A DNA stretch of 35,449 nucleotides, taken from assembly GCA_004213215.1 (NCBI GenBank), contig SHAO01000006.1, positions 1-35,449 of the forward strand, in the 5' to 3' direction. Positions within the stretch are counted from its first letter, which is position 1; the number at the start of each line of letters is the position of its first letter. Both the position numbers and the translations under genes were made by a program. Below the pieces are notes generated by a model. It was given only the letters and a program-made list of their open reading frames with translations, had not been told where the DNA came from and did not search any database. The stretch is from Candidatus Pelagibacterales bacterium (GTDB lineage: Bacteria > Pseudomonadota > Alphaproteobacteria > Pelagibacterales > Pelagibacteraceae). Below are positions 2 to 13,140 of the stretch, piece after piece.

Positions 2-430
2 AAAGGTTATTTAACAAAAGAAGGTATTAAAGCTCCAAAAAGTATAGACGGCTATTACGATACAGGAGATATTGGAGATTATAAAGATGGATTGCTTTTT
101 ATAAAAGGAAGAAAACGTGATGTGATAAAGAAAGGTGGAGAATTAATATCACTTGCTTTAATTGAAAACACAGCTTTAAAAAATGAGAGTGTTTTAGAAG
201 CGGCTGCTATCGGAAAAAAAGATACATTATCAGGAGAAGATCTTTATTTAATACTTACCATTAAAGGAAAATTTTCTTTAGATAAAAAAATTAAGGAAAT
301 AAGAAGTTTTCTATCTAATAAGTTGAGGCCTATAGAAATGCCAAAAAAAATTATCTTAACCTCGAAGATGCCCAAAACAAACAGTGGAAAAATTCTAAAG
401 AACTCTTTATTAAAGCTATTTGAACTTTAA
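2..430 (+). CDS. C-terminal part of an AMP-dependent acyl-CoA/acyl-ACP synthetase (truncated by window start)
   Basis: Frame is open from position 2 (KGYLTKEGIK...GYYDTGDIGDYKDGLLFIKGRKRDVIKKGGE). Contains the YDTGD and GRKRDVIKKGGE motifs and a C-terminal PKTNSGKILKN lysine motif of ANL enzymes. Confidence 0.85.
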   Translation, partial: KGYLTKEGIKAPKSIDGYYDTGDIGDYKDGLLFIKGRKRDVIKKGGELISLALIENTALKNESVLEAAAIGKKDTLSGEDLYLILTIKGKFSLDKKIKEIRSFLSNKLRPIEMPKKIILTSKMPKTNSGKILKNSLLKLFEL

Positions 431-432
431 AA

Positions 433-1242
433 TTACTTATAGGGAATTCTGTTTTTCTTAAAGTTTGAAATTTTAAAAAAAGCAAATTGATCTTTTTCAA
501 GAAATCTTAAAGCGGAATTAAAATATTCTTTAGCACTAAAAAGATAAATTTTTGAAGAACCTAGGTTTTCTGATTTTATTAATTTTTTTTTTATTAATAC
601 TTTTTCTAATTTTTTTAAATTTTTCAGTTTAGGCTTAATATCTAAATCTAAATATCTGACTGATGTAGAAAAATATTTATTAATTTTTTTGTTATTTTTA
701 TAATAATTAACGTTTGTAAGTTTATTATAATAATATGGCACACCACTTAAATATTCTGCCAGATGTAGAAATGGATTACACCAAGCGTCTAAACCTAGAT
801 TTAACACCTTACCATCTAATTCTATAAATCTGTGGTAAGGAGAGTTATATCCATAATTATGATGTGAATTATTTGCGCACAAATATTTCTTGTGCCTGCC
901 TAAAGCTGTAACTGAAAAAACAGGATGTTGACTTCTTAGAGATTCTTTTCTTCTCCTTATATAATCAGAAAATTCACCACTGGTACTTTTTGTTTTCTCA
1001 TAAATGAATTTTTTTCCGTGTCTTAATGTCTGAAAAGTATAAGTGTTAGTTGCTATCGTTCCATTTTTTCCAATAGTTTCATAAATAGAATCAAAAAAGA
1101 TTTTAAAGTATTGATTTCTATCTTTAGCCTCACAAAGATCGCCAAGCTTAAATAATTTATGGTTAAGGTAAACTGTCTGACCTTTCTTAAGACCAATTTT
1201 TTTTAAAGCACGCAATATGTCAATTTTTTTAAACTTTTTCAC
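433..1242 (-). CDS. AAC(3)-family N-acetyltransferase-like protein
   Basis: 269 aa; ALKKIGLKKGQTVYLNHKLFKLG start, TIATNTYTF, SGEFSDYIRRRKESLRSQHPVFSVTALG and LNLGLD...HLAEYLSGVPY blocks resemble the AAC(3)/FrbF-type acetyltransferase fold. Confidence 0.7.
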   Translation of the reverse strand: MKKFKKIDILRALKKIGLKKGQTVYLNHKLFKLGDLCEAKDRNQYFKIFFDSIYETIGKNGTIATNTYTFQTLRHGKKFIYEKTKSTSGEFSDYIRRRKESLRSQHPVFSVTALGRHKKYLCANNSHHNYGYNSPYHRFIELDGKVLNLGLDAWCNPFLHLAEYLSGVPYYYNKLTNVNYYKNNKKINKYFSTSVRYLDLDIKPKLKNLKKLEKVLIKKKLIKSENLGSSKIYLFSAKEYFNSALRFLEKDQFAFFKISNFKKNRIPYK

Positions 1243-1250
1243 GTTAAAAT

Positions 1251-1490
1251 TTAGTGTAACAATTTAGCTATATTTTCAATTGAAGAAAATGAAACATTAT
1301 GAACATTTTTTGGATCAATTTTTCGTTTATTAATTTTATCAATTTCATGAATAATTCTAATTATGTCAAAAGAATCTATTATTCCATCATTAATTAAGTT
1401 TATTTTATTATTATTTAAGGAAGATTTTATCTCAGGCTTAATTTCAATTAAAATTTTTTTAACAATTTCTTTTTTATTAATTTTGGTCAT
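1251..1490 (-). CDS. Acyl carrier protein
   Basis: About 79 aa with LINDGIIDSFDIIRIIHEIDK, the D-S-(F/L) phosphopantetheine attachment motif. ATG at 1490 preferred over the upstream start at 1502. Confidence 0.75.
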   Translation of the reverse strand: MTKINKKEIVKKILIEIKPEIKSSLNNNKINLINDGIIDSFDIIRIIHEIDKINKRKIDPKNVHNVSFSSIENIAKLLH

Positions 1491-1516
1491 TTGTAGTATC
1501 AAAAATATTATAATTA

Positions 1517-1939
1517 TTAGACATCAGTTCCTGTCTTAGCTATCTTTTTATTTAAAATTTTTAATAAACTTGATCCAGTTGCAACAATCTGGTTTGCTGC
1601 TGTTAGTTCACAGGTTAAAAAAATCATTGATTTTGTCCTTTTTTGTATTTTGGCTTTCCCAAACAATTCTTCTCCCAATTTAACAGCTGCAATAAACTTT
1701 ATTTCTAGTGATATAGTGGCACACGAACTATTACCAGACGCTTTATATGCAACAGCGCTAAGACCAGTATCTACAATAGCAGATATGAATCCTCCATGAG
1801 TTATCCCAGCGGCATTAAGATGGTTTTCTTTTATAGTAGTTTTAAATTCAGATTCGTTCTCAGAAATTGTTCTAAATAAAAGACCCCCATTATGCTTCAT
1901 GAAAGGTTCAAAATTTATTTGCTCAAAATCTTTACTCAT
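1517..1939 (-). CDS. PaaI-type hotdog-fold thioesterase
   Basis: 140 aa; HLNAAGITHGGFISAIVDTGLSAVAYKAS...TISLEIKFIAAVKLGEELFGKAKIQKRTKSMIFLTCEL is typical of the PaaI/4HBT family. Confidence 0.85.
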   Translation of the reverse strand: MSKDFEQINFEPFMKHNGGLLFRTISENESEFKTTIKENHLNAAGITHGGFISAIVDTGLSAVAYKASGNSSCATISLEIKFIAAVKLGEELFGKAKIQKRTKSMIFLTCELTAANQIVATGSSLLKILNKKIAKTGTDV

Positions 1940-1967: not shown

Positions 1968-3629
1968 TTATAAGCTTATTTCAATTTGTCTACTGATAGA
2001 ATCTTTTTTAGGTGAATTTATAGCATGATTAGATTTATTATAAACTATACCATCAATACTATTTAACTGAATTACATCCAATTTTAATCCATTATTCATT
2101 ATAAGTTTATCTACAATTTCCTTCAAAGTTATCTCTCCCTCTCCAATTACACAAATATCTACATTTTTATCTTTTAGAACTTCTTCATAACTAGTAGTTG
2201 GATGAGGTCCTCCTGCTATTATTGTTTTTTGATAACCTTTTTCACGAATACTTTTAACAATATTCTTAAAAAAATCTTTGTGAAAAGTCATTACACTTGC
2301 GCCTATTACATCAGGATCAAATTTTTTTATTATATCATCCAACTCATCATAAGAATCAAAATCAACACTAGATTTGATTATTTTTCCTTTTATTTTTTCT
2401 CCAAACTCTCGATTTAAATAAGTCTGAAGAGCTATTAAACCTAATGGTGGCTCCAAAACATCATATTCGCTAATACCTCTATCACTTGCGAAAGGCGTGG
2501 AAACATTAATTAACAAAATTTTAAAAGCATCAGAATTATCTTTCTTTTTTGGGAATTTTGACAATATTTTATTATTTAGATCTTTTATCTCTATAGCTTC
2601 ATTTTTTAAACAGTCAATTTTAAGTTCATTTTCTTTTATTCCAGCTAATTTTAAAACATCCTTTACACCTTTTACTTTGTATGGAAAGTAAGATGAGTAT
2701 CTTTGGTCTAACTCTTCTTGAGTAAAATGTTTCATCTGAAATGGTAAAACTTTAAGTAGTCTTTCTTTATTTAAAATATACTCCGTCAAGAACCTCACTC
2801 TATACATAACGGTGAATTCTTTCTTAAATGGTAAAGTTGGAGTAACTTGGTGATAAGATCTATCTATAGACTCATTAATTGCCTTTCTTGCAACACCATG
2901 GTTTAAAGCAAATTTTTCTAAGTCCGTACCTGGAAATATTCGCACAATGTGTGAATAAGGAAAATGTATCCATTTCAATGATAAAATAAAATTCAAAGTC
3001 ATCATTGCCTCTTCTTCGGTCTCTGTAGGAAATCCATGCATAGTATTTAAACCCGTTACGGCTTCAGGGTATTTTTTACATATATATTCCATATTATCTT
3101 TAAATTTTTGAATATTTAAATTTTTTCTCATCACTTTTTGCATTCTGGGCGAAGCTGATTCCAAAGAAACATTTATTCCGACAGCTCCTCCTTCCATCAT
3201 AGCATCTATGGACTCTTTATCTAACAAATCACCTTTTAAAGCTGTTGGAAAAAAGAAACTAACACCCAATTTATCTCTAGAAACTCTTTTAAAAAATTCT
3301 ACAAAATCTTTTTTCTTTACATTAAATATATCGTCAATAAATTCAATTCGTTTTACTCCCATATCTGCAATCATTTTTACTTCTTCATATATGGAGTCAA
3401 CTGATCTTCTAAAATGATGCACTGTAGTTTTATACACATCGCAATAAAAGCATCTGTAAGGGCAACCTCTGGTAGCTTGTATTGCCATCGATTCCTTAAC
3501 ACCAGCATGACCAACTTGTTTGTTATATTTTTTATAATTGACCAAAGACCTGTCAAAGGTAGGTAAAATATCTAGATTATTTATTTGTTTTCTAGTTTTT
3601 GTTTTTACAAACTGATTATTCATCGTCAT
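1968..3629 (-). CDS. Radical SAM protein with C-terminal B12-binding-like domain (atypical, apparently permuted order)
   Basis: 553 aa; N-terminal linker-like NNLDILPTFDRSL then RGCPYRCFYC (CxxxCxxC), GINVSLESAS and GFPTETEEE. The C-terminal KILLINVS...PPLGLIALQTYL...PDVIGASVMTF...IIAGGPHPTTSYEEVL...DICVIGEGEITLKEIV...DGIVYNK block is B12-binding-like. Confidence 0.9.
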   Translation of the reverse strand: MTMNNQFVKTKTRKQINNLDILPTFDRSLVNYKKYNKQVGHAGVKESMAIQATRGCPYRCFYCDVYKTTVHHFRRSVDSIYEEVKMIADMGVKRIEFIDDIFNVKKKDFVEFFKRVSRDKLGVSFFFPTALKGDLLDKESIDAMMEGGAVGINVSLESASPRMQKVMRKNLNIQKFKDNMEYICKKYPEAVTGLNTMHGFPTETEEEAMMTLNFILSLKWIHFPYSHIVRIFPGTDLEKFALNHGVARKAINESIDRSYHQVTPTLPFKKEFTVMYRVRFLTEYILNKERLLKVLPFQMKHFTQEELDQRYSSYFPYKVKGVKDVLKLAGIKENELKIDCLKNEAIEIKDLNNKILSKFPKKKDNSDAFKILLINVSTPFASDRGISEYDVLEPPLGLIALQTYLNREFGEKIKGKIIKSSVDFDSYDELDDIIKKFDPDVIGASVMTFHKDFFKNIVKSIREKGYQKTIIAGGPHPTTSYEEVLKDKNVDICVIGEGEITLKEIVDKLIMNNGLKLDVIQLNSIDGIVYNKSNHAINSPKKDSISRQIEISL

Positions 3630-3703
3630 TTAAATTATTTGAACTTTAACAATATAATTACATCAAGTCACTATAAAAATAAGATTGATTAAGATTTGGG
3701 CTG

Positions 3704-3886
3704 CTATTTCCTAATTAGTTTGTTTATTAACTGTTCAATTTTTATCTTTTTTGTCACACTATTATCTTCATTATAAAGCAGCTTAAACTTGATAGAATCG
3801 TTTATTCTAATAACTACAGATTTTATATTTCTTACTTCTATATTGTCGGCAACAACACTAACGGGTCTTTTCGTAACATTTAAATT
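3704..3886 (-). pseudogene. Orphan 3' fragment of NAD kinase (nadK remnant)
   Basis: Reverse strand reads KNLNVTKRPVSVVADNIEVRNIKSVVIRINDSIKFKLLYNEDNSVTKKIKIEQLINKLIRK*. It aligns to the intact NadK C-terminus (KNLNVPKRPISVVADNIEVRNMKSVVIKVNNSIKFKLLYDRDNSLIKKIKVEQLKKEIN), 43/59 identical by hand count. No start codon, and a stop lies upstream in frame. Confidence 0.92.
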
Positions 3887-3887
3887 T

Positions 3888-4898
3888 TTATTTTAATAAT
3901 TCATTTATATTTTTATCTAGCTCTAATTCAAAACCCTTATCATAGCCTGGATTAGCAGCACAATGCCCAAAGGGAGAATTGTAAGGTCTAATGGAAACAT
4001 TAGGAATATATTCAGCCTCAAACAAATTGTCATCAGTTCGAAAATATAAATCCTGGTCACATGGCATTAAGATTGTGCGTGCACAAATTGATTTTAATGC
4101 TTTTTTAAAATCACTTTTATAAAGTGGTCCAGCACTAATATCTGAAGTTTGCCAAGTTTTAATTTTTGCTAACAAATTATTAGCATCCCAATTCTTGGCA
4201 TGATCGTTTTCCCAATCTACAAGTAAATCTTCGACTCTTTTAAAACCAATTGTTTTGTACAATTCCTTTCTAAAAAATTCTTGAGAAAATGCCCAGCCTG
4301 CATAAACTCTTCCAAAAGCTTTTAAACCAGATATGGGTGGAGATTTGTAATTACCTTTATTCCAATTTTTATCTGCAATTAACGATGCTTTTACACCTTC
4401 TAAAAAAACATGATTATGTATTGATGTTTTTGCTGAAGCACAGAATGGAAGAATAGATTTTACCATTTTAGGAAACTGAGCTCCCCATTGATAAGCTTGA
4501 CAACCAGCCATTGACCATCCAGTAACCAAAGCTACTTTTTTAATCTTTAATTTTTCTGTTAATAATTTTTGCTGGCAATTGATATTATCCCATAATGTTA
4601 TATTAGGAAAACGAGGACCATCTTGTGGATTTAGGCTGTTGCTAGGTGAAGATGATAATCCATTTCCAAACATATTAATGGAAATAATAAAATATTTATT
4701 TGGATCAATAGCTCTACCAGATCCAAAAAAACCTTCGTTTCTTTTATGAGTTCCTGTATAAAATGTAGGTAAAACTATAACGTTATCTGATTTTTTATTT
4801 AAAACCCCGTAGGTTTTGTAAGTAATTTTTGCTGACTTTAAAATTTTTCCTGAAAGAAGTTTAACATCTCCTAATTTGAAAGTTTCATAATCTTTCAT
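3888..4898 (-). CDS. Alpha/beta-hydrolase, homoserine O-acetyltransferase (MetX)-like
   Basis: 336 aa; NVIVLPTFYTGTH, nucleophile elbow GWSMAGCQAYQWGAQFP, C-terminal SPFGHCAANPG with the catalytic His position. Confidence 0.8.
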   Translation of the reverse strand: MKDYETFKLGDVKLLSGKILKSAKITYKTYGVLNKKSDNVIVLPTFYTGTHKRNEGFFGSGRAIDPNKYFIISINMFGNGLSSSPSNSLNPQDGPRFPNITLWDNINCQQKLLTEKLKIKKVALVTGWSMAGCQAYQWGAQFPKMVKSILPFCASAKTSIHNHVFLEGVKASLIADKNWNKGNYKSPPISGLKAFGRVYAGWAFSQEFFRKELYKTIGFKRVEDLLVDWENDHAKNWDANNLLAKIKTWQTSDISAGPLYKSDFKKALKSICARTILMPCDQDLYFRTDDNLFEAEYIPNVSIRPYNSPFGHCAANPGYDKGFELELDKNINELLK

Positions 4899-6325
4899 TA
4901 ATACAATCTAAGATATTCCTTTACTTCCCAATCAGTAACAGCTTGATGATAACGTTCCCACTCATCATTTTTATAAGAGAGAAATGATTTTTTCATAGCT
5001 TGACCCAAAACTTCTTCTGCTAGCTTATCAATTTTAAGAGATTCAATAGCTTGTAGTAAATTTTTAGGAAGACGTCTAATTCCTAATTTCTTAAATTCAT
5101 CTTCTGTCATTTGATATAAATCACGATCTGTTGCTTTACCTGGTTCAATCTTATTTTTAATTCCCTCTAATGCAGCTGAAGAAGTCATGGCAAGAGCTAA
5201 ATAAACGTTCATTGTCATATCTGCAGCTCTATTTTCTATACAGTACCTATTTTGTGGTAAGCGAAATTGTGCTGATCTATTATTGTGACCATAGGTAATA
5301 TTAGTAGGTGCCCAAGTTACTGTTCCTCCTTCAAACCCCCCTACTCTTGGAACTAATCCATTATATGAGTTAACTGTTGAACAAGTGATAGCAGTCAAGG
5401 CTTCTGCATGTTTCATTAATCCTCCAACAGCATACTGAGATTCTTTAGACCAAGATTTGCCGTCAGTAAAAATATTTTTGCCAGGCTTATTAACATCCTC
5501 CATTGAAAAATTTATATGCGCTCCTGATCTCCAGTCACCTATTGTAGGTTTTGGCATGAATGTAATGAACATATTATTTTTCTTAGCAACTTCTTTTAAA
5601 AGAATTCTAAGAAACACTAATCTATCAGCCATTTCTAAAAGGTTTGTATAATGAAAATCTAATTCAAACTGTGAGTAGGCTCCTTCTGCTACAACATCAT
5701 GTAGATTCCAACCTAAGTCTTCAAGAATATCTATCAGTTCTTTAAAAAAATGCATTGAGTCTAATGAATGTTCAACATCATATCCAAAAGCTTGTCGCCT
5801 TGGTCTTAACCCTTTTATAGGGTCGTTATCTATAGCTTTGATAGGTTTTCCATCTTCATCATATTTCATTGCAATAAATTCTGGCTCAATACCACACATT
5901 CCCTTATATCCAGCATCTTTAATTTTTTGCATAGCTCGTTTTAATGCTTGTCTAGGGCAAACGTTATATGGTTTACCTTCCCAAAAAAGATCAGCAAAAA
6001 TAATAGCTGTAGATTTATCCCATGGACAAATATAAACAGAATCTAAGTCTGGTAACATTATCTGATCTGAATCTGCGGGAGTAAGCTCTGGAACAAAAGA
6101 AATTGAATGAACAGCAAATTGAGGTCCTTTACCTAAACACAAAGGTTCAAAATCACTCATTGGAACAGGTTTAGTTTTTGGAATTCCATGAAGATCTATC
6201 CAGCTTGATAATATATATTTTACACCTGCACTTTTTAATTTTTTGTGTAAATCAGGTATTTTTTTTCTATTACGCTCAATAGCTTCTTCGAAAGATTCAT
6301 AATAAATTTTATTATTTTTAGTCAT
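4898..6325 (-). CDS. Glutamine synthetase-like gamma-glutamyl ligase (GlnT/type III, GMAS/PuuA-like)
   Basis: 475 aa; YILSSWIDLHGIPKTKPVP, GMCGIEPEFI, GAYSQFELDF, TFMPKPTIGDWRSGAHINFS, NRSAQFRLP...ENRAADMTMNVYLALA. GS beta-grasp and catalytic motifs are evident. Confidence 0.9.
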   Translation of the reverse strand: MTKNNKIYYESFEEAIERNRKKIPDLHKKLKSAGVKYILSSWIDLHGIPKTKPVPMSDFEPLCLGKGPQFAVHSISFVPELTPADSDQIMLPDLDSVYICPWDKSTAIIFADLFWEGKPYNVCPRQALKRAMQKIKDAGYKGMCGIEPEFIAMKYDEDGKPIKAIDNDPIKGLRPRRQAFGYDVEHSLDSMHFFKELIDILEDLGWNLHDVVAEGAYSQFELDFHYTNLLEMADRLVFLRILLKEVAKKNNMFITFMPKPTIGDWRSGAHINFSMEDVNKPGKNIFTDGKSWSKESQYAVGGLMKHAEALTAITCSTVNSYNGLVPRVGGFEGGTVTWAPTNITYGHNNRSAQFRLPQNRYCIENRAADMTMNVYLALAMTSSAALEGIKNKIEPGKATDRDLYQMTEDEFKKLGIRRLPKNLLQAIESLKIDKLAEEVLGQAMKKSFLSYKNDEWERYHQAVTDWEVKEYLRLY

Positions 6326-6327
6326 AA

Positions 6328-6732
6328 TTATTTTTTTACTGGGGGCATATCCTCAGGATCAATCCCTGGAACAAAAGTAATGCCTGCTTTTTGTTTCCAA
6401 TCATGTGGATAAGCTGCATAAAATATTACGCATTTTTCATCACATTCATAAGCTATGTGGTTATCTTTTGGAACATAAAGAACATCTCCTGGATTACAAA
6501 CGAAAGACTCACCATTGCAAGTCAGACGAAAAGTTCCTTCCATACAATAGATAATCTCATCACAAGTCAGGTCCCATGGTACAGAAACTTTATTTAAAAA
6601 ATTTAGGCCTCCGCACATTGTATTGCTAACTTTACTAGTTACAAATGGTTTAATATAACTCTTGCCAGGTTCCAATGTATGAAGTCTATTTTCGATATCT
6701 TTAAATTTATATAATTGTGGTTTTTTTGACAT
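6328..6732 (-). CDS. Cupin-domain protein (EutQ-like)
   Basis: 134 aa; DEIIYCMEGTFRLTCNGESFVCNPGDVLYVPKDNHIAYECDEKCVIFYAAYP, a cupin motif pattern. Confidence 0.8.
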   Translation of the reverse strand: MSKKPQLYKFKDIENRLHTLEPGKSYIKPFVTSKVSNTMCGGLNFLNKVSVPWDLTCDEIIYCMEGTFRLTCNGESFVCNPGDVLYVPKDNHIAYECDEKCVIFYAAYPHDWKQKAGITFVPGIDPEDMPPVKK

Positions 6733-6749
6733 AATTATTTCCTTTCAAT

Positions 6750-7169
6750 TTATACTTTTACTGGTTCATTTAATTCTACTTTATATCCGTCTGGATCTTC
6801 ACAAAAAGCAATGACTCTAGTTCCATGTTTCATTGGACCAGGCGCTCGCGTAATTTTTACACCTAATTTAGTAAGATCATCACAAGCTTTATAAACATCT
6901 CGTGTTTCTATACATATATGACCCCAACCGTTACCTTTATCGTAATTTTCTTTTTGTTCCCAATTGTGAGTAAGTTCTAAACAAGGAGATTCTGTTTCAA
7001 GACCATATCCAATAAACGCATTAGTAAATTTACCATCTGGGTAATCTGTTTTTCTTAAAATTTTCATTCCTAAAGTTTTACAATAAAAATTGAAAGAGGC
7101 TTCTAAATCTCTAACTCTAATCATTGTGTGTGCCAATCTGTAACCATCACTATTTACTTCTTTAGACAT
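6750..7169 (-). CDS. Glyoxalase/VOC-family protein (lactoylglutathione lyase-like)
   Basis: 139 aa; LAHTMIRVRDLEASFNFYCKTLGMKILRKTDYPDGKF...LELTHN...GWGHICIETRDVY...FCEDPDGYKVELNE. Confidence 0.88.
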   Translation of the reverse strand: MSKEVNSDGYRLAHTMIRVRDLEASFNFYCKTLGMKILRKTDYPDGKFTNAFIGYGLETESPCLELTHNWEQKENYDKGNGWGHICIETRDVYKACDDLTKLGVKITRAPGPMKHGTRVIAFCEDPDGYKVELNEPVKV

Positions 7170-8244
7170 TTTTTTTTCCTTTCATAGTTGCTCTTATTAT
7201 AAGTTTTTGAAATGCTCTAACACTTGTTTCCCAGTGGGGAGACAAAAGTCCACCATGCACAGAAGCAGGAGATGAACGCCCTTCTTGCAATCGTTCACAT
7301 ATCTCGTGATCTTCTTTGTGAACGCTCCACCAAATTTTTTTTTGTAAATCAATTTCTTGTTTTGTCATATCTTTACCTTCAGTAGTATAAATTATTCTTT
7401 TTTGAGTAGTCAATCCCGGAGTTATAGGAATATTTAAATAAACTCCAATTTGATTAGGAACGTAAGTTCCAATGATAAAATTTGGAAATAAAGATAGATA
7501 TCGAGAACTTACGGATAAAGTGTTACTCTCTTTATTCTCTTCTTTAACATCTACACCACTACCCAAACACACGCCATCTACAATTGTATAATGATCTTTT
7601 AATGGTTGTTTTGTTGTTGTTTTATGAACAAATTGAACGTGGTATGGTTCAATAAAATTTTCTATAAGAAATTTCCAATTTGTATTAATTTTACCAAAAT
7701 CTAATGTAGCAACTTTTTTTATTTTTTTAAGATTAATATCTTTAAATTTATTAATAAGTGGTTTTGCATATTCATCAAATTTTTTTGCTTTACCGCTCAA
7801 ATTTATAAAAATCCAATCATACCAAATATGAATACGAATTGGCTTAAGTCCATGATCTGAATTATTAAATCCTTGTGGTCTATGATTGTTTGTTCCTCCA
7901 AAATGAGGAGAAGCTTTTAAATTTCCATCCAAATCGTAAGTCCATGAATGATAAGGGCATTGAATAATTTTTCCTACATTTTTTTTTTCATTTACTAGTT
8001 TGAGACACCTATGACTACAAACATTATGGAATGCTTTAATTTCATTTTTGTTATTTTTTATAAGCAGTATAGGTTTGTCAGCAATTAAAATTGGATAAGC
8101 ATCACCACTCTTTAAGAATTCATGAACAAATCCAATAAATAACCATCCATTAGATAAAACAGTATTACACTCATTTTTCCAAAATTGCTGATCGGTATAA
8201 GATTTCGCTGGTAGACCATGTATTGACTTACCGTTTTTGACCAT
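7162..8244 (-). CDS. Rieske non-heme iron oxygenase alpha subunit (GbcA/CntA/ring-hydroxylating type)
   Basis: CSHRC...CPYHSW Rieske motif; ENFIEPYHVQFVH catalytic His pair; EDHEICERLQEG. ATG at 8244 (MVKNGKSIHG) chosen over the ORF start at 8298. Confidence 0.88.
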   Translation of the reverse strand: MVKNGKSIHGLPAKSYTDQQFWKNECNTVLSNGWLFIGFVHEFLKSGDAYPILIADKPILLIKNNKNEIKAFHNVCSHRCLKLVNEKKNVGKIIQCPYHSWTYDLDGNLKASPHFGGTNNHRPQGFNNSDHGLKPIRIHIWYDWIFINLSGKAKKFDEYAKPLINKFKDINLKKIKKVATLDFGKINTNWKFLIENFIEPYHVQFVHKTTTKQPLKDHYTIVDGVCLGSGVDVKEENKESNTLSVSSRYLSLFPNFIIGTYVPNQIGVYLNIPITPGLTTQKRIIYTTEGKDMTKQEIDLQKKIWWSVHKEDHEICERLQEGRSSPASVHGGLLSPHWETSVRAFQKLIIRATMKGKKNV

Positions 8245-8311
8245 TTTACATCCTCTAAAAATTAATCCAAATCTAATTGCGATTTTTAGATTAATCAATA
8301 ATAATAAAGTA
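8245..8311. promoter_or_regulatory. Divergent promoter/operator region between the two Rieske oxygenase genes
   Basis: 67-bp gap between divergent ATGs. Contains AATCTAA (8270-8276) and TTAGATT (8286-8292) as an inverted repeat, plus ATTAATC (8261-8267) / GATTAAT (8289-8295). Confidence 0.45.
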
Positions 8312-9643
8312 ATGAAAAATTTTAGAGGCTATAAACAATCAAAAATGCCTGAAAGTGATAAAACAATATCACAAACTGACCCTGGAACTTCTTGTGGCGA
8401 GTACCTTCGACGTTATTGGCATCCTGTAGCTCTTACTTCTCAAGTAAGTACTACTCCACTACAAATACGTATTCTTGGTGAAGATTTAGTTATTTTTAAA
8501 ACTACAAAAAATAAAATTGGTTTAGTCCATAAGAATTGTCCTCACAGAAGGGCATCTTTAGTTTACGGTAAATGTGAAAAGAGAGGTATTCGATGTTGTT
8601 ATCATGGATGGTTATTTTCACCAGATGGTGAGATTCTTGAAACTCCTGGTGAGGATTCTAATTCAAAACAAGCAGCTAAATTAAGAAAAACATTTAAACT
8701 TGGATCTTACCCGGTTATAGAATTTAAAGGTTTGGTATTTGCCTATATGGGGCCGGAAAAATGTTTGCCTGAATTTCCTCACTACGATGCATTTGATACC
8801 CCAGAAATAACAAGAAGACCTTATCGAATAGAATATAACTGCAATTGGATACAAGTACTTGATGCAATTATGGATCCTGTTCATACTTCATTTTTACATG
8901 GACAAAGTTCAGGCATACAATTTTCTAAAGGTTTTACAGAAATTGGTGAGTTGGAGTTTTTTGAAAGAGGAATTCAATATCTTGGATGTAATACTCGTCG
9001 CGTAGATGACTATGTTTGGATAAGAGTTAATGAATTAATATTACCTAATTTTACTCAAGCAGGTTCTGCTTTTGCAGCAGATGGAACAAAGACTCGTTAT
9101 TTTGGTCGCAGTTCATTTACTCGTTGGGTGGTTCCCGTAGATGATGAACATTGTATTGCTTTGGCGTGGGGTAATTTTGGTAAAAGAGGTGATCCATTAG
9201 AATATAATACTAAAGAAGGTTGTGAAAGGATTGAAGCTGGAGAAGTTATGGATCGAACTTGGGAAGAAAAGCAAAAAAAACCTGGTGATGCTGAAGCAGT
9301 AGAAGGAATGGGATCTATTAGCGCTCATAGAGGTGAACATTTAATGCCAACTGATTATGGAGTAATGATTTATAGGCGTCGTATTAGAAAATTAACTAAA
9401 GATTTAGAAAAAGGTAAAGAACCCCCTCAACCTCAACAAAGAAAAGGTGATATAATAAAAACTAATGGACAAGATACAATTCTAAGAATTCCTAAAAGAA
9501 ATATTGATGATCGTAACTTTATAAAGTCAGTTGGTTCAACTGTAATGAAATTACAATTCGATGCTGAAAAAATGTCTCTTAAAGAACGTGACAATCATAT
9601 TATCAGCAAGTTGTCTAACATGGAAAAAAGTGGTGCTTTTTGA
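8312..9643 (+). CDS. Rieske non-heme iron oxygenase, phthalate 4,5-dioxygenase alpha-like
   Basis: LRRYWHPVALTSQV; Rieske motif CPHRRA...CCYHGW; MDPVHTSFLHG metal-binding motif. ATG at 8312 (MKNFRGYKQSKMPESD) preferred over 8237, which would overlap the divergent gene. Confidence 0.88.
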   Translation: MKNFRGYKQSKMPESDKTISQTDPGTSCGEYLRRYWHPVALTSQVSTTPLQIRILGEDLVIFKTTKNKIGLVHKNCPHRRASLVYGKCEKRGIRCCYHGWLFSPDGEILETPGEDSNSKQAAKLRKTFKLGSYPVIEFKGLVFAYMGPEKCLPEFPHYDAFDTPEITRRPYRIEYNCNWIQVLDAIMDPVHTSFLHGQSSGIQFSKGFTEIGELEFFERGIQYLGCNTRRVDDYVWIRVNELILPNFTQAGSAFAADGTKTRYFGRSSFTRWVVPVDDEHCIALAWGNFGKRGDPLEYNTKEGCERIEAGEVMDRTWEEKQKKPGDAEAVEGMGSISAHRGEHLMPTDYGVMIYRRRIRKLTKDLEKGKEPPQPQQRKGDIIKTNGQDTILRIPKRNIDDRNFIKSVGSTVMKLQFDAEKMSLKERDNHIISKLSNMEKSGAF

Positions 9644-10665
9644 ATAGTAAAAAAATTAAAGTACATGTTAAAAATAATCATTGGGCACCCGGATCATTCC
9701 CAAGTGATGCAGAAGGTGAAAAAAACTTTACAATAACTAAAAAACATATAGATCAAGCTTTAGAAGGTTTTCCAGAAATTAAAGAAAAAGTTGAATTTTT
9801 TATTGATTGGGATGAAGATAATTTTAAAACCTCAATGTCTAATTCTGATATTTTATTAGCTTGGAACTTTTCTACAACCAATCTTAAAAATGTTGCCCCG
9901 AATTTAAAATGGATACACCTTATTTCTGCAGGTGTAGAACATTTGTTACCTCTGGATTGGATGTTTGATGGTTTAGTTTTAACTAATAGCAGTGGAGTAC
10001 ATTCTAAAAAAGCTGGAGAATACGGTTTAATGAGTATTTTGATGCTTCAAAATCATATGACTAAAATTATAACAAATCAAAAAAATAAAAAATTTATTTC
10101 ATTATTTAGTAATCCTATTAAAGGAAAAACTGTCTTATTAGTTGGAACAGGTTCTCTTGGTTCATCTATGGCCAAACATGTATCTTTACTAGGTGCAAAT
10201 GTAATTGGAGTTAACAAGCAAGGACGTTCGGTTGAAGGATGCTCAAAAATTATCACTATCGATAAAATTGATAGTGTTTTACCTCATGCAGATTTTTTAT
10301 ATTTAGCAGTTCCTGGTACACCCGAAACTAAAAATTTAATAAATCGCAAAAGACTTAATATGCTTAAACCTTCTTGTGGAGTTATAAATATAGGAAGACA
10401 ATCTGTTATGGATTACGATGTATTATGTGAAAAGCTCAAAAAGTTTGAAATTGCTGGTGCCATACTTGATGTTTTTTCACCTGAACCAATAGAAAAAAAT
10501 TCTAAACTTTGGGATACACCAAATTTAATTATTACACCTCATGTATCTTCTGATGATCATGGAACATATGTGCGATCTACACTTGAATTATTTGTTAAAA
10601 ATTTAAAACTTTTTATTTTAAATAAAGAACTTTTTAACAAAATTGATAAAGATTTAGGTTATTAA
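9640..10665 (+). CDS. D-isomer-specific 2-hydroxyacid dehydrogenase
   Basis: 341 aa; KTVLLVGTGSLGSSMAKHVSLLGANVIG (Rossmann), LAVPGTPETKNLINRKRLNMLKPSCGVINIGR, GAILDVFSPEP, LIITPHVSS. TTG start overlaps the preceding stop. Confidence 0.87.
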   Translation: MNSKKIKVHVKNNHWAPGSFPSDAEGEKNFTITKKHIDQALEGFPEIKEKVEFFIDWDEDNFKTSMSNSDILLAWNFSTTNLKNVAPNLKWIHLISAGVEHLLPLDWMFDGLVLTNSSGVHSKKAGEYGLMSILMLQNHMTKIITNQKNKKFISLFSNPIKGKTVLLVGTGSLGSSMAKHVSLLGANVIGVNKQGRSVEGCSKIITIDKIDSVLPHADFLYLAVPGTPETKNLINRKRLNMLKPSCGVINIGRQSVMDYDVLCEKLKKFEIAGAILDVFSPEPIEKNSKLWDTPNLIITPHVSSDDHGTYVRSTLELFVKNLKLFILNKELFNKIDKDLGY

Positions 10666-10668
10666 TTT

Positions 10669-11445
10669 TTAATTAATCTCTTTTTTTAGTTGCTCAACTT
10701 TTATCTTTTTTATTAAACTATTATCTCTGTCATAAAGTAATTTAAACTTTATAGAATTATTTACTTTTATAACAACAGATTTCATGTTTCTCACTTCTAT
10801 ATTATCAGCAACAACGCTTATTGGTCTTTTTGGTACATTTAGATTCTTAATTTTAATTAAAGAAGTATCTGATACAATTTTACCCTTCCATCTTCTTGGT
10901 CTAAAGGGGCTTATGGGTGTAACGGCAAGCTTTTTTGAATTCAAAGAAAGGATTGGTCCGTGAACAGATAAATTGTAGGCAGTACTACCAGCTGGAGATG
11001 AAACTAATATTCCGTCACTAATTAATTTTTTAATTAAGATTTTTTTGTTAACTTGAATTTGTAAAGAGGCTGCTTGTCTGCTTTGTCTTAATAAAGAAAT
11101 TTCATTAATAGCAATAGTAGATTTTTTTATATTTTTTGTTGATATAGAGGTCATTTCTAAAGCTGATATAGTAATTAATTTAGATTTTAAGATGCTTTTT
11201 TCAATTTTATTCAATTTAAATTTATTCATTAAAAAACCAAATGTTCCCTTATTCATTCCATAAAAAGGTATATTATATTTATGATATTTTTTTAAAGTTT
11301 CTAACATAAAGCCGTCACCTCCTATCACAACAAATACATTAGAGTTTTTTGGGTGATAATTTATTTTTTTTTTTAAAAAAGAATTTTTAAAAGACTTGTC
11401 TTTTATAGACTCATCAATTATGTAATGAATTTTATTTAATTTCAT
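10669..11445 (-). CDS. nadK: NAD kinase
   Basis: 258 aa; VVIGGDGFMLETL, GTFGFLMN, NEISLLRQ, DGILVSSPAGSTAYNLS. Confidence 0.92.
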   Translation of the reverse strand: MKLNKIHYIIDESIKDKSFKNSFLKKKINYHPKNSNVFVVIGGDGFMLETLKKYHKYNIPFYGMNKGTFGFLMNKFKLNKIEKSILKSKLITISALEMTSISTKNIKKSTIAINEISLLRQSRQAASLQIQVNKKILIKKLISDGILVSSPAGSTAYNLSVHGPILSLNSKKLAVTPISPFRPRRWKGKIVSDTSLIKIKNLNVPKRPISVVADNIEVRNMKSVVIKVNNSIKFKLLYDRDNSLIKKIKVEQLKKEIN

Positions 11446-11450
11446 TTTTT

Positions 11451-11536
11451 TGGTGCCCTCGGCCAGACTCGAACTGGCACTCCCATACGGGCAAGGATTT
11501 TAAGTCCTTTGTGTCTACCAATTTCACCACGAGGGC
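11451..11536 (-). tRNA. tRNA-Leu(UAA), CCA encoded
   Basis: Reverse strand gccctcgtggtgaaattggtagacacaaaggacttaaaatccttgcccgtatgggagtgccagttcgagtctggccgagggcacca. Shows an acceptor stem, long variable arm, TTCGAGT and anticodon TAA. Confidence 0.95.
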
Positions 11537-11613
11537 TCTTCTCTTTATTAACTTTTTAATCATATTTGGTCAATGCACAATTTTAGAATTGAATTGATGC
11601 GAAGTTTAGGAAT

Positions 11614-13140
11614 CTAATTAAGGTTATTTATTTTTTCCATAGGAAGAGATTTTTTTCCTGAATTCTTAGAAAATTTAACCTTTTTTTCTAATCTTGAAAC
11701 GTATTTAAAATAAAAAACTATATAATTTATAATATTCTTCATAATTCCTTTTAGACTGGATTGTCTTAAGGTAACCTCATAGCCATAAAATGCAAAAAAG
11801 ACCCACATATAAAAATAATCTAAGGGTAAAGCAATTAAAAATTTTGTAAAAGGTCTTAAAAAAGGAAATTCAACTATAAGACCCATTAATTTTTGTAAAT
11901 TATTTATTTTACGATTGAGTTTTTTATCACCTAAATCCATTGACGATTTAGATTTGTTTGAAACATTAACTTTTTCGAAATTAGCATCAAAATATCCTCC
12001 ATGTTTTGCCAACTCACCTATTTCTGTTCCAGGATAAGGATATAGAATAGAAGACCATGCAAAATTAGGTTTCAATTTTATATTAAAGTCTAATGTCTCT
12101 AAATCCACTTCTAGTGGATTCTTGATAGGCAAACCAACAATATTTAGAGTTATGATTTTAATCTTATTTCTGTGAAGTATCTCAGTAGCTTCGATAATTT
12201 TTTCATTTTTTGTAGCTCTTTTTAATAATTTGCTAGCTACTTCATTATTGCCACATTCTATCCCCATGTACACATGTGTACAGTTAGATTTTCGAAGCAA
12301 TCTTCCAACTCTTTCACTAACCATGTTTGGTCGAACATTGCAGTGAAGTGGAATACCAATTTCTTTAGGGTATCTTTCTGAAAACTCTTCTAACCACCCT
12401 TTTGGTTTCAACAAAAATATATCATCATCGATTAATACACGATCTATAAAATAATTATCTTTAACTTCTTTAATTTCACAAAGAATACTATCTACAGAAC
12501 GATATCTCATCATATCTCCAGAGCCTTTAGTTAGCTTGTTGTAAGCATGATTAAAACAATAAGTGCATTTATACGGACAACCTCTATTTGACATAAATAG
12601 TTTTGAACCACGCGCACGCAATTTAGGATCTGCTTCATATAGCAATTTTCTATCTGGGAAAGGTATATCATCTAAATTTTCAACCAAAGAACCCATTTTA
12701 TTTTTTACAATGGATCCATCTTTCTTCTTAAACCAAAAATTTGGAGTGTCATAAAAATCCTTACCTTTTTCTAATTTTTCAATTAGTTCTAAAAAATAAA
12801 TTTCACCTTCACCACGACAAATAGCATCAACATAATCATTATCAACCATTTCTGGAGTATAAGTAGGGTGCGGTCCGCCAAAAACAGATAGCGTGTTAGG
12901 ATAATGACTTCTTATCATTCTGTTTAAATCAATATGATAAGTATGTTCTCCAGTCATGATACTGTATGCTAATACTTGTGGGCCAAAACTTTTTACTTTA
13001 TCAATTATTTCTTCCTCACCTAATTCTTCAGTTAAAATTAGATTAACTTGATGATTGTTCTTTTTAAGTATGCTTGAAAGTGTCATTATTCCAAGACGCT
13101 CAAACATTCCTGTGTTCTTTAGTAAAAATTGAACTTTCAT
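11614..13140 (-). CDS. B12-binding domain radical SAM protein (canonical domain order)
   Basis: 508 aa; N-terminal B12-like VLAYSIMTGEHTYH...SVFGGPHPTYTPEMV...ICRGEGEIYFLEL, linker NLDDIPFPDRKLL, then RGCPYKCTYC and MGIECGNNEV. Confidence 0.92.
   Translation of the reverse strand: MKVQFLLKNTGMFERLGIMTLSSILKKNNHQVNLILTEELGEEEIIDKVKSFGPQVLAYSIMTGEHTYHIDLNRMIRSHYPNTLSVFGGPHPTYTPEMVDNDYVDAICRGEGEIYFLELIEKLEKGKDFYDTPNFWFKKKDGSIVKNKMGSLVENLDDIPFPDRKLLYEADPKLRARGSKLFMSNRGCPYKCTYCFNHAYNKLTKGSGDMMRYRSVDSILCEIKEVKDNYFIDRVLIDDDIFLLKPKGWLEEFSERYPKEIGIPLHCNVRPNMVSERVGRLLRKSNCTHVYMGIECGNNEVASKLLKRATKNEKIIEATEILHRNKIKIITLNIVGLPIKNPLEVDLETLDFNIKLKPNFAWSSILYPYPGTEIGELAKHGGYFDANFEKVNVSNKSKSSMDLGDKKLNRKINNLQKLMGLIVEFPFLRPFTKFLIALPLDYFYMWVFFAFYGYEVTLRQSSLKGIMKNIINYIVFYFKYVSRLEKKVKFSKNSGKKSLPMEKINNLN

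Follow-up and report, generated by a model that had tools for sequence, protein, structure and literature searches.

Cobalamin-dependent radical SAM enzymes of class 1, such as OxsB, TsrM, TokK, CysS and MgmA, have a five-stranded Rossmann-type B12-binding domain (PF02310) located N-terminal to the radical SAM domain (PF04055). In class 2, which comprises Mmp10 and the DUF512 proteins, the cobalamin domain is C-terminal and has a four-stranded CFeSP-like fold, and reviews treat these proteins as the C-terminal-cobalamin class (PMC13331322, PMC11659888). For Mmp10, the C-terminal domain has been described as a different, four-stranded fold (PMC13331322). A second group of described systems are the interrupted adenylation (A) domains of non-ribosomal peptide synthetases (NRPSs), for which MT, Ox, MOx and KR inserts have been reported (PMC11355689, PMC8949500, PMC8097286). 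TioN and MarQ carry S-methyltransferase inserts at the a2/a3 interruption site (PMC11355689, PMC8949500). On balance, we favour the reading that the protein analyzed here is a cobalamin/radical SAM enzyme of the class 1 type in permuted form, which occurs free in SAR11 and within NRPS A domains in other phyla, with C-methylation of carrier-bound groups as the presumed function.

The window, i.e. the whole stretch of 35,449 nucleotides analyzed from a Candidatus Pelagibacterales genome, contains an intact open reading frame at positions 1968–3629 of the minus strand, with an ATG start and a length of 553 amino acids. It encodes a circularly permuted, free-standing radical SAM–B12-binding protein, as assigned from the reading frame, the domain order in Pfam, 29 relatives with the same order and an AF2 model. 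All features of the gene are on the minus strand. The protein begins with a strand (residues 7–9, positions 3603–3611), presumed to be the second strand of the former B12-to-radical-SAM hairpin, based on the DSSP assignment in the AF2 model and a match to 'GIRLTPPRPL' of the canonical-order protein L089 after rotation. Residues 13–35 (positions 3525–3593) form the linker RKQINNLDILPTFDRSLVNYKKY, the counterpart of the canonical B12-to-radical-SAM linker in an alignment of 30 units ('PRPLITDLDTLPPPDHS' in L089). The radical SAM domain spans residues 51–215 (positions 2985–3479; PF04055, E 1e-23) and includes the [4Fe-4S]/SAM motif CPYRCFYC at residues 56–63 (positions 3441–3464), of which the last two cysteines are invariant in 30 of the 30 aligned units and the first is nearly invariant. 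A helical segment at residues ~260–365 (positions 2535–2852), predicted by AF2 and aligned across by the rotated L089, bridges what are the C- and N-termini in canonical proteins. The B12-binding domain, of the five-stranded Rossmann type, follows at residues 394–505 (positions 2115–2450; PF02310, E 3e-17), has a match to TokK (432–548) and contains GGPHPTTSY and GEGE. The C-terminal hairpin strand region is located at residues 526–531 (positions 2037–2054; strand 528–531 in the model), and the permutation point is placed in the turn after it, at the optimum of the L089 rotation. These assignments agree with the first-pass annotation, which had correctly placed the linker, the CxxxCxxC motif, GGPHPTTSY and GEGE and had reported the reversed order. 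It had also used the reading frame at positions 11614–13140 of the window as a control, and Pfam confirmed the usual order there, with the B12 domain first (residues 14–119) and the radical SAM domain second (residues 186–342).

The AF2 model of the window protein, built from a 30-row alignment, had a pLDDT of 87.9 and a pTM of 0.88. In the model, the B12 part consists of five strands in Rossmann order (369–375, 413–420, 441–445, 469–473 and 492–494), and a strand is present at either end of the permuted unit (7–9 and 528–531); hairpin pairing and cofactor placement were read from secondary structure and homology. The tail (residues 538–553, positions 1971–2018) is unstructured (pLDDT <50) and not conserved in other SAR11 copies. 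Its last residues, SRQIEISL, had been thought to resemble the N-terminal linker, and linker-like sequence at both ends had been taken as a trace of tandem duplication. The resemblance was no better than that of the tail's own shuffles (2000 shuffles, p=0.76), which leaves the proposed trace without support. Among the proteins scanned, there was no intermediate with the order B12-radical SAM-B12-radical SAM and none with two radical SAM or two B12 domains. A reading of SRQIEISL as an A-domain strand was dropped for SAR11, as 26 of 300 shuffles scored equally high; the window protein is free-standing, with no flanking A-domain sequence and a tail that is not significantly A-like.

Compared with class 1, the window protein has both domains, namely PF04055 with the CxxxCxxC motif and a five-stranded PF02310 domain, as well as the linker and hairpin motifs. 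However, the B12 domain is not N-terminal to the radical SAM domain. Because the domain order is reversed, we filed the protein as a permuted class 1 variant, which also differs from class 1 in that most permuted members are nested in NRPS A domains. The C-terminal position of the cobalamin domain is shared with class 2. An Mmp10-like identity was ruled out, since the domain matches PF02310 rather than DUF512 and has five strands in the model, in agreement with the first-pass view that the protein is distinct from Mmp10 and ends in a B12-binding-like domain. Most of the best PDB matches obtained with Foldseek were enzymes of the radical SAM or cobalamin type (AprD4, MgmA, MiaB, MetH, TsrM, CysS and TokK). 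None of the NCBIfam equivalogs for B12-radical SAM proteins (PhpK, ladderane, BchE, HpnJ and others) reached its cut-off, the best being PhpK with 109 bits against a cut-off of 600, so no characterized reaction can be transferred to the window protein. Judged from the sequences, the permuted family is descended from within the class 1 cobalamin-dependent radical SAM enzymes.

Phylogenetic analysis of the two halves placed the permuted units in a single clade. Its neighbour in the radical SAM tree was the canonical-order protein L034 (SH-aLRT 97), and L034 was again the neighbour in the separately built tree of the B12 half (SH-aLRT 91). With 45 canonical proteins included, the B12 tree kept L034 and its full-length homologue L089 as the sister (92), and the radical SAM tree placed both in an unresolved group with the permuted family, together with L118. 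L034 is truncated by the end of its contig, and L089 (507 amino acids, B12 domain first) was scored against a model of the permuted units in all rotations. Cuts at residues 145–162 yielded one alignment of 312 bits covering model positions 7–515, as compared to two disjoint matches of 227 and 89 bits for L089 in its native order. The best cut site, IEGLAVRSDKG/IRLTPPRPL, corresponds to the turn of the hairpin that leads from the B12 domain into the linker. In the rotation of 50 canonical proteins, a clear gain was seen for L089 only, most of the others being too distant for their halves to merge; L105, a canonical protein added later, gained 27 bits with the cut at the same hairpin. The 312-bit alignment was obtained with the --max option of HMMER, and without it not even L089 merged, which shows that merging into a single hit depends on how HMMER splits domains. 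The evidence that counts is therefore the rotation result with --max along with the separate matches of the two halves.

Since both halves share the same canonical neighbours and one rotation restores collinearity, we conclude that the window protein is a circular permutation of a canonical B12-radical SAM protein and not a new fusion. The first-pass view of a rearranged form of the common family is borne out by both trees and by the L089 rotation. An independent fusion would require that a stray B12 domain was added behind a radical SAM protein that had lost its own, so that the order is convergent. Domain shuffling is common, and the Mmp10/DUF512 enzymes arrived at this order using a cobalamin fold of unrelated origin (PMC11659888), but we consider this very improbable given the identical neighbours of the two halves and the single rotation that aligns almost all of L089, including the linker and the helical segment. 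The closest known relatives of both halves are L034 and L089, from the Zixibacteria phylum, and the group L117–L127, from the phylum of a Desulfobacteraceae genome discussed below; these proteins are free-standing and have the normal order B12-linker-radical SAM, whereas the order is reversed in the permuted family.

A scan of contigs from one genome per species identified 28 loci with a permuted unit. Full-length, free-standing relatives of about 550 amino acids, 54–71% identical to the window protein, are present in at least seven other Pelagibacteraceae genomes, and among 60 SAR11 relatives searched the carriers were confined to the genus of the window. About 20 further loci, 38–45% identical, belong to Aminicenantes/Acidobacteriota, Bacteroidales, Spirochaetales, Clostridia, SAR324 and others. 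The copies in these groups, including that of the isolate Pseudobacteroides cellulosolvens (Clostridia), lie within reading frames of approximately 950 to 4000 amino acids. The order of radical SAM followed by B12 was conserved in all 30 aligned units, and homologs with the identical order, a check proposed in the first-pass annotation, were thus found in SAR11 and in many other phyla. This also bears on the risk that two genes were fused by an assembly or annotation error. The window is a draft contig, but the same order with full-length similarity in the other SAR11 genomes and in many phyla refutes such an artefact, and its conservation in the isolate excludes a mis-join; we regard the probability of this explanation as negligible.

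The distribution is patchy. Among the genomes sampled, the unit was present in 2 of 289 from the window's class, in 1 of 250 from the phylum to which the Pseudobacteroides genome belongs and in 1 of 247 from that of G060. The unit has likely spread horizontally. G060, an Aminicenantes bin of 10.4 Mb that contains locus L012, has approximately 29 full-length and several partial radical SAM-B12 units in NRPS genes, and G069 and G066 also have many permuted units each. The G060 contigs with units additionally carry several radical SAM proteins of 562–587 amino acids, and the bin may be mixed. Two other units have an altered sequence. In the unit L101 (G441:C26:565-2193), from another family of the window's class, there is one in-frame TAA, indicating either a pseudogene or a sequencing error. 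In L013:4780-11841 (Aminicenantes), the first cluster cysteine is replaced (RGYPYNCAYC), and this unit is therefore probably inactive.

The nesting between A2 and A3 outside SAR11, which was absent from the first-pass annotation, matters most with regard to mechanism as well as evolution. In the NRPS copies, Pfam places a condensation domain first, then an AMP-binding domain that is split by radical SAM and B12, in that order, and a carrier domain last. Motif A2 (LKAGGAYLPID) precedes the unit and motif A3 (LAYVIYTSGSTGKPKG) comes after it. The A motifs are intact on either side of the insert in the NRPS relatives, with A3 and A5 being degenerate in L017. In an AF2 model of the complete A domain of L022 (pLDDT 84, pTM 0.76), the fold of an adenylation domain is retained around the insert, and the best PDB match is GrsA PheA (1amu). 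As in TioN and MarQ, the insertion site is between A2 and A3 and the presumed target of the catalytic insert is the residue that its host A domain has loaded; unlike in TioN and MarQ, the insert is a B12/radical SAM didomain and not a classical methyltransferase. A full-text search of part of the literature, excluding PMC8341866 (a catalogue of such domains from 2020), found no A domain interrupted by a radical SAM domain.

The ten-residue codes of the host A domains were read against GrsA and include DAWTIAAVCK, DAWFLGNVVK, DGFFLGVVYK, DALWLGGTFK, DLTKIGEVGK, DFWNIGMVHK and DVQFIAHVVK, among others. We take these to specify, in the order given, Phe, Leu, Ile, Val, Asn, Thr and Pro. Such widely different specificity codes indicate that the unit is portable. 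The A domains of L021:4216-10641, L025, L026, L016 and L030 are doubly interrupted. In addition to the radical SAM-B12 unit at a2/a3, they contain a QueC-like domain of the ATP-pyrophosphatase type that is inserted between A8 and the AMP_C end, and they have in common the unfamiliar code DP[WF]Y-GT[IV]N. In L017, two adjacent interrupted A domains (5605-8751 and 8720-12076) have odd codes, and their A3 and A5 motifs are degenerate. They are flanked by canonical B12-radical SAM genes; these A domains are possibly dead for adenylation and retained for the insert.

The nesting may explain the permutation. A domain inserted into a loop needs adjacent termini, and a cut in the hairpin turn makes the new ends neighbouring strands. 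The models of both the window protein and the L022 A domain have a strand at either end of the unit, and permutation and nesting may therefore be linked. The break maps to the turn of the B12-to-radical-SAM beta-hairpin, the helical segment connects the old termini, and permutation would unite the two new termini as one hairpin, as required for insertion into a loop. Whether the NRPS copies represent an undescribed module class, in which a permuted B12/radical SAM unit at a2/a3 would perform radical C-methylation in cis at unreactive carbons of many residues, with an excised free form acting in trans in SAR11, is in our judgement an even call.

As for the direction of evolution, we infer an NRPS-embedded ancestry with release in SAR11, so that the free-standing SAR11 copy would probably derive from an NRPS module; this is reasonably likely. 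The opposite direction, in which the free-standing SAR11 form is ancestral and was inserted into A domains later, is possible but the less probable of the two. It is compatible with the concatenated tree, where the SAR11 copies form one well-supported clade (100/100) placed in a polytomy among the NRPS-embedded copies. However, the basal-most free-standing copy in this tree (81/96) is L031, from a Desulfobacteraceae genome, and L031 bears apparent A-domain remnants. Its N-terminal residues 49–87 scored 10.1 bits against an A domain, as compared to a best score of 5.4 in 500 shuffles, and its tail showed a weakly significant resemblance (p 0.02). L031 is located between a free-standing A-like enzyme on one side and a PP-binding protein on the other. 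The embedded forms are also far more diverse, and the SAR11 neighbourhoods are variable, as expected for acquired genes.

In the window, the genes next to the unit encode the C-terminal part of an AMP-forming acyl/aminoacyl ligase that is truncated by the contig end (positions 2–430, plus strand; PF13193, E 3e-12), an AAC(3)-family N-acetyltransferase homologue (433–1242, minus strand; PF02522, E 2e-32), a carrier-protein-like product with the motif GIIDSFD (1251–1502, minus strand) and a PaaI/4HBT-like thioesterase (1517–1939, minus strand; PF03061, E 3e-13). The carrier-like protein, a candidate substrate carrier, has a weak DltC/ACP match (NCBIfam DltC, E 0.004) and no Pfam match. An AAC(3)-family homologue also adjoins the unit in L007 (L007:7651-8454). 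Neighbours of the SAR11 units include carrier-protein-like genes, AMP ligases, LuxE/LuxC-like, FabZ-like and AAC(3)-like acetyltransferase genes and pseudaminic acid genes. This set of neighbours points to an acyl-carrier pathway, located in a region that is variable and surface-related. In line with a supply of B12, L009 encodes a TonB-dependent, BtuB-like B12 receptor (L009:401-2335) immediately upstream of its permuted gene and in the same orientation. BtuB-like receptors were found in 13 of the 23 genomes examined from the genus, and all four carriers of the unit from the search of 60 relatives are among these. Elsewhere in the window, a 222-bp direct repeat of the 3' end of the NAD kinase gene (positions 3678–3897 and 10636–10857, 77% identical) brackets a block of catabolic genes located at 3.9–10.6 kb, with MetX-like, glutamine-synthetase-like, cupin, glyoxalase, two Rieske oxygenase and 2-hydroxyacid dehydrogenase genes, which suggests that the block is an inserted island. 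The permuted unit in L037 likewise adjoins an NAD kinase gene, and the NAD kinase locus may thus be an insertion hotspot.

We infer cobalamin binding, methylation and a carrier-bound substrate, and the most likely function is a cobalamin-dependent radical C-methylation of carrier-bound aminoacyl or acyl groups. The [4Fe-4S] cluster would cleave SAM to yield a 5'-deoxyadenosyl radical, which would abstract a hydrogen from a carbon of the aminoacyl or acyl thioester on a carrier protein, and methylcobalamin on the C-terminal Rossmann domain would donate the methyl group. Chemistry on carrier-bound groups is supported by the relatives TokK and CysS, which have PDB structures with pantetheinylated substrates according to the entry titles, and by the A-like enzyme and the PP-binding protein on either side of L031. 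In cis, the unit would act once the host A domain has loaded its own T domain; in trans, in SAR11, the target would be a discrete carrier protein encoded nearby. Since the unit functions with very different hosts, it probably acts at a common position of the carrier-bound residue, for example the beta carbon. A radical enzyme other than a methyltransferase, such as an epimerase, a dehydrogenase/dehydratase or a ring or C-C bond former that uses cobalamin differently or not at all, is a tentative alternative that we favour less. The closest PDB match of the radical SAM part of the window protein is AprD4, a dehydratase, and the best family matches found for L089, the canonical sister, include ApyD and BchE. 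However, the B12 domain with its GGP and GEGE loops is strongly conserved across the family, and most of the characterized relatives that were matched are methyltransferases (PhpK, Sden_1168, KedN5, MgmA, TokK, TsrM and CysS).

The circular permutation of a complex metalloenzyme can rarely be traced. In the present case, it is possible to name the lineage of the parent, the break point and, with the need for adjacent termini, a plausible reason for selection. Provided that the nested unit functions as proposed, NRPSs would use radical chemistry to add methyl groups to carbon atoms in the course of loading. This would be useful for product prediction in poorly known phyla and for the engineering of A domains. 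SAR11, a group known for its streamlined genomes, would gain an unexpected B12-dependent radical enzyme with an origin in secondary metabolism.
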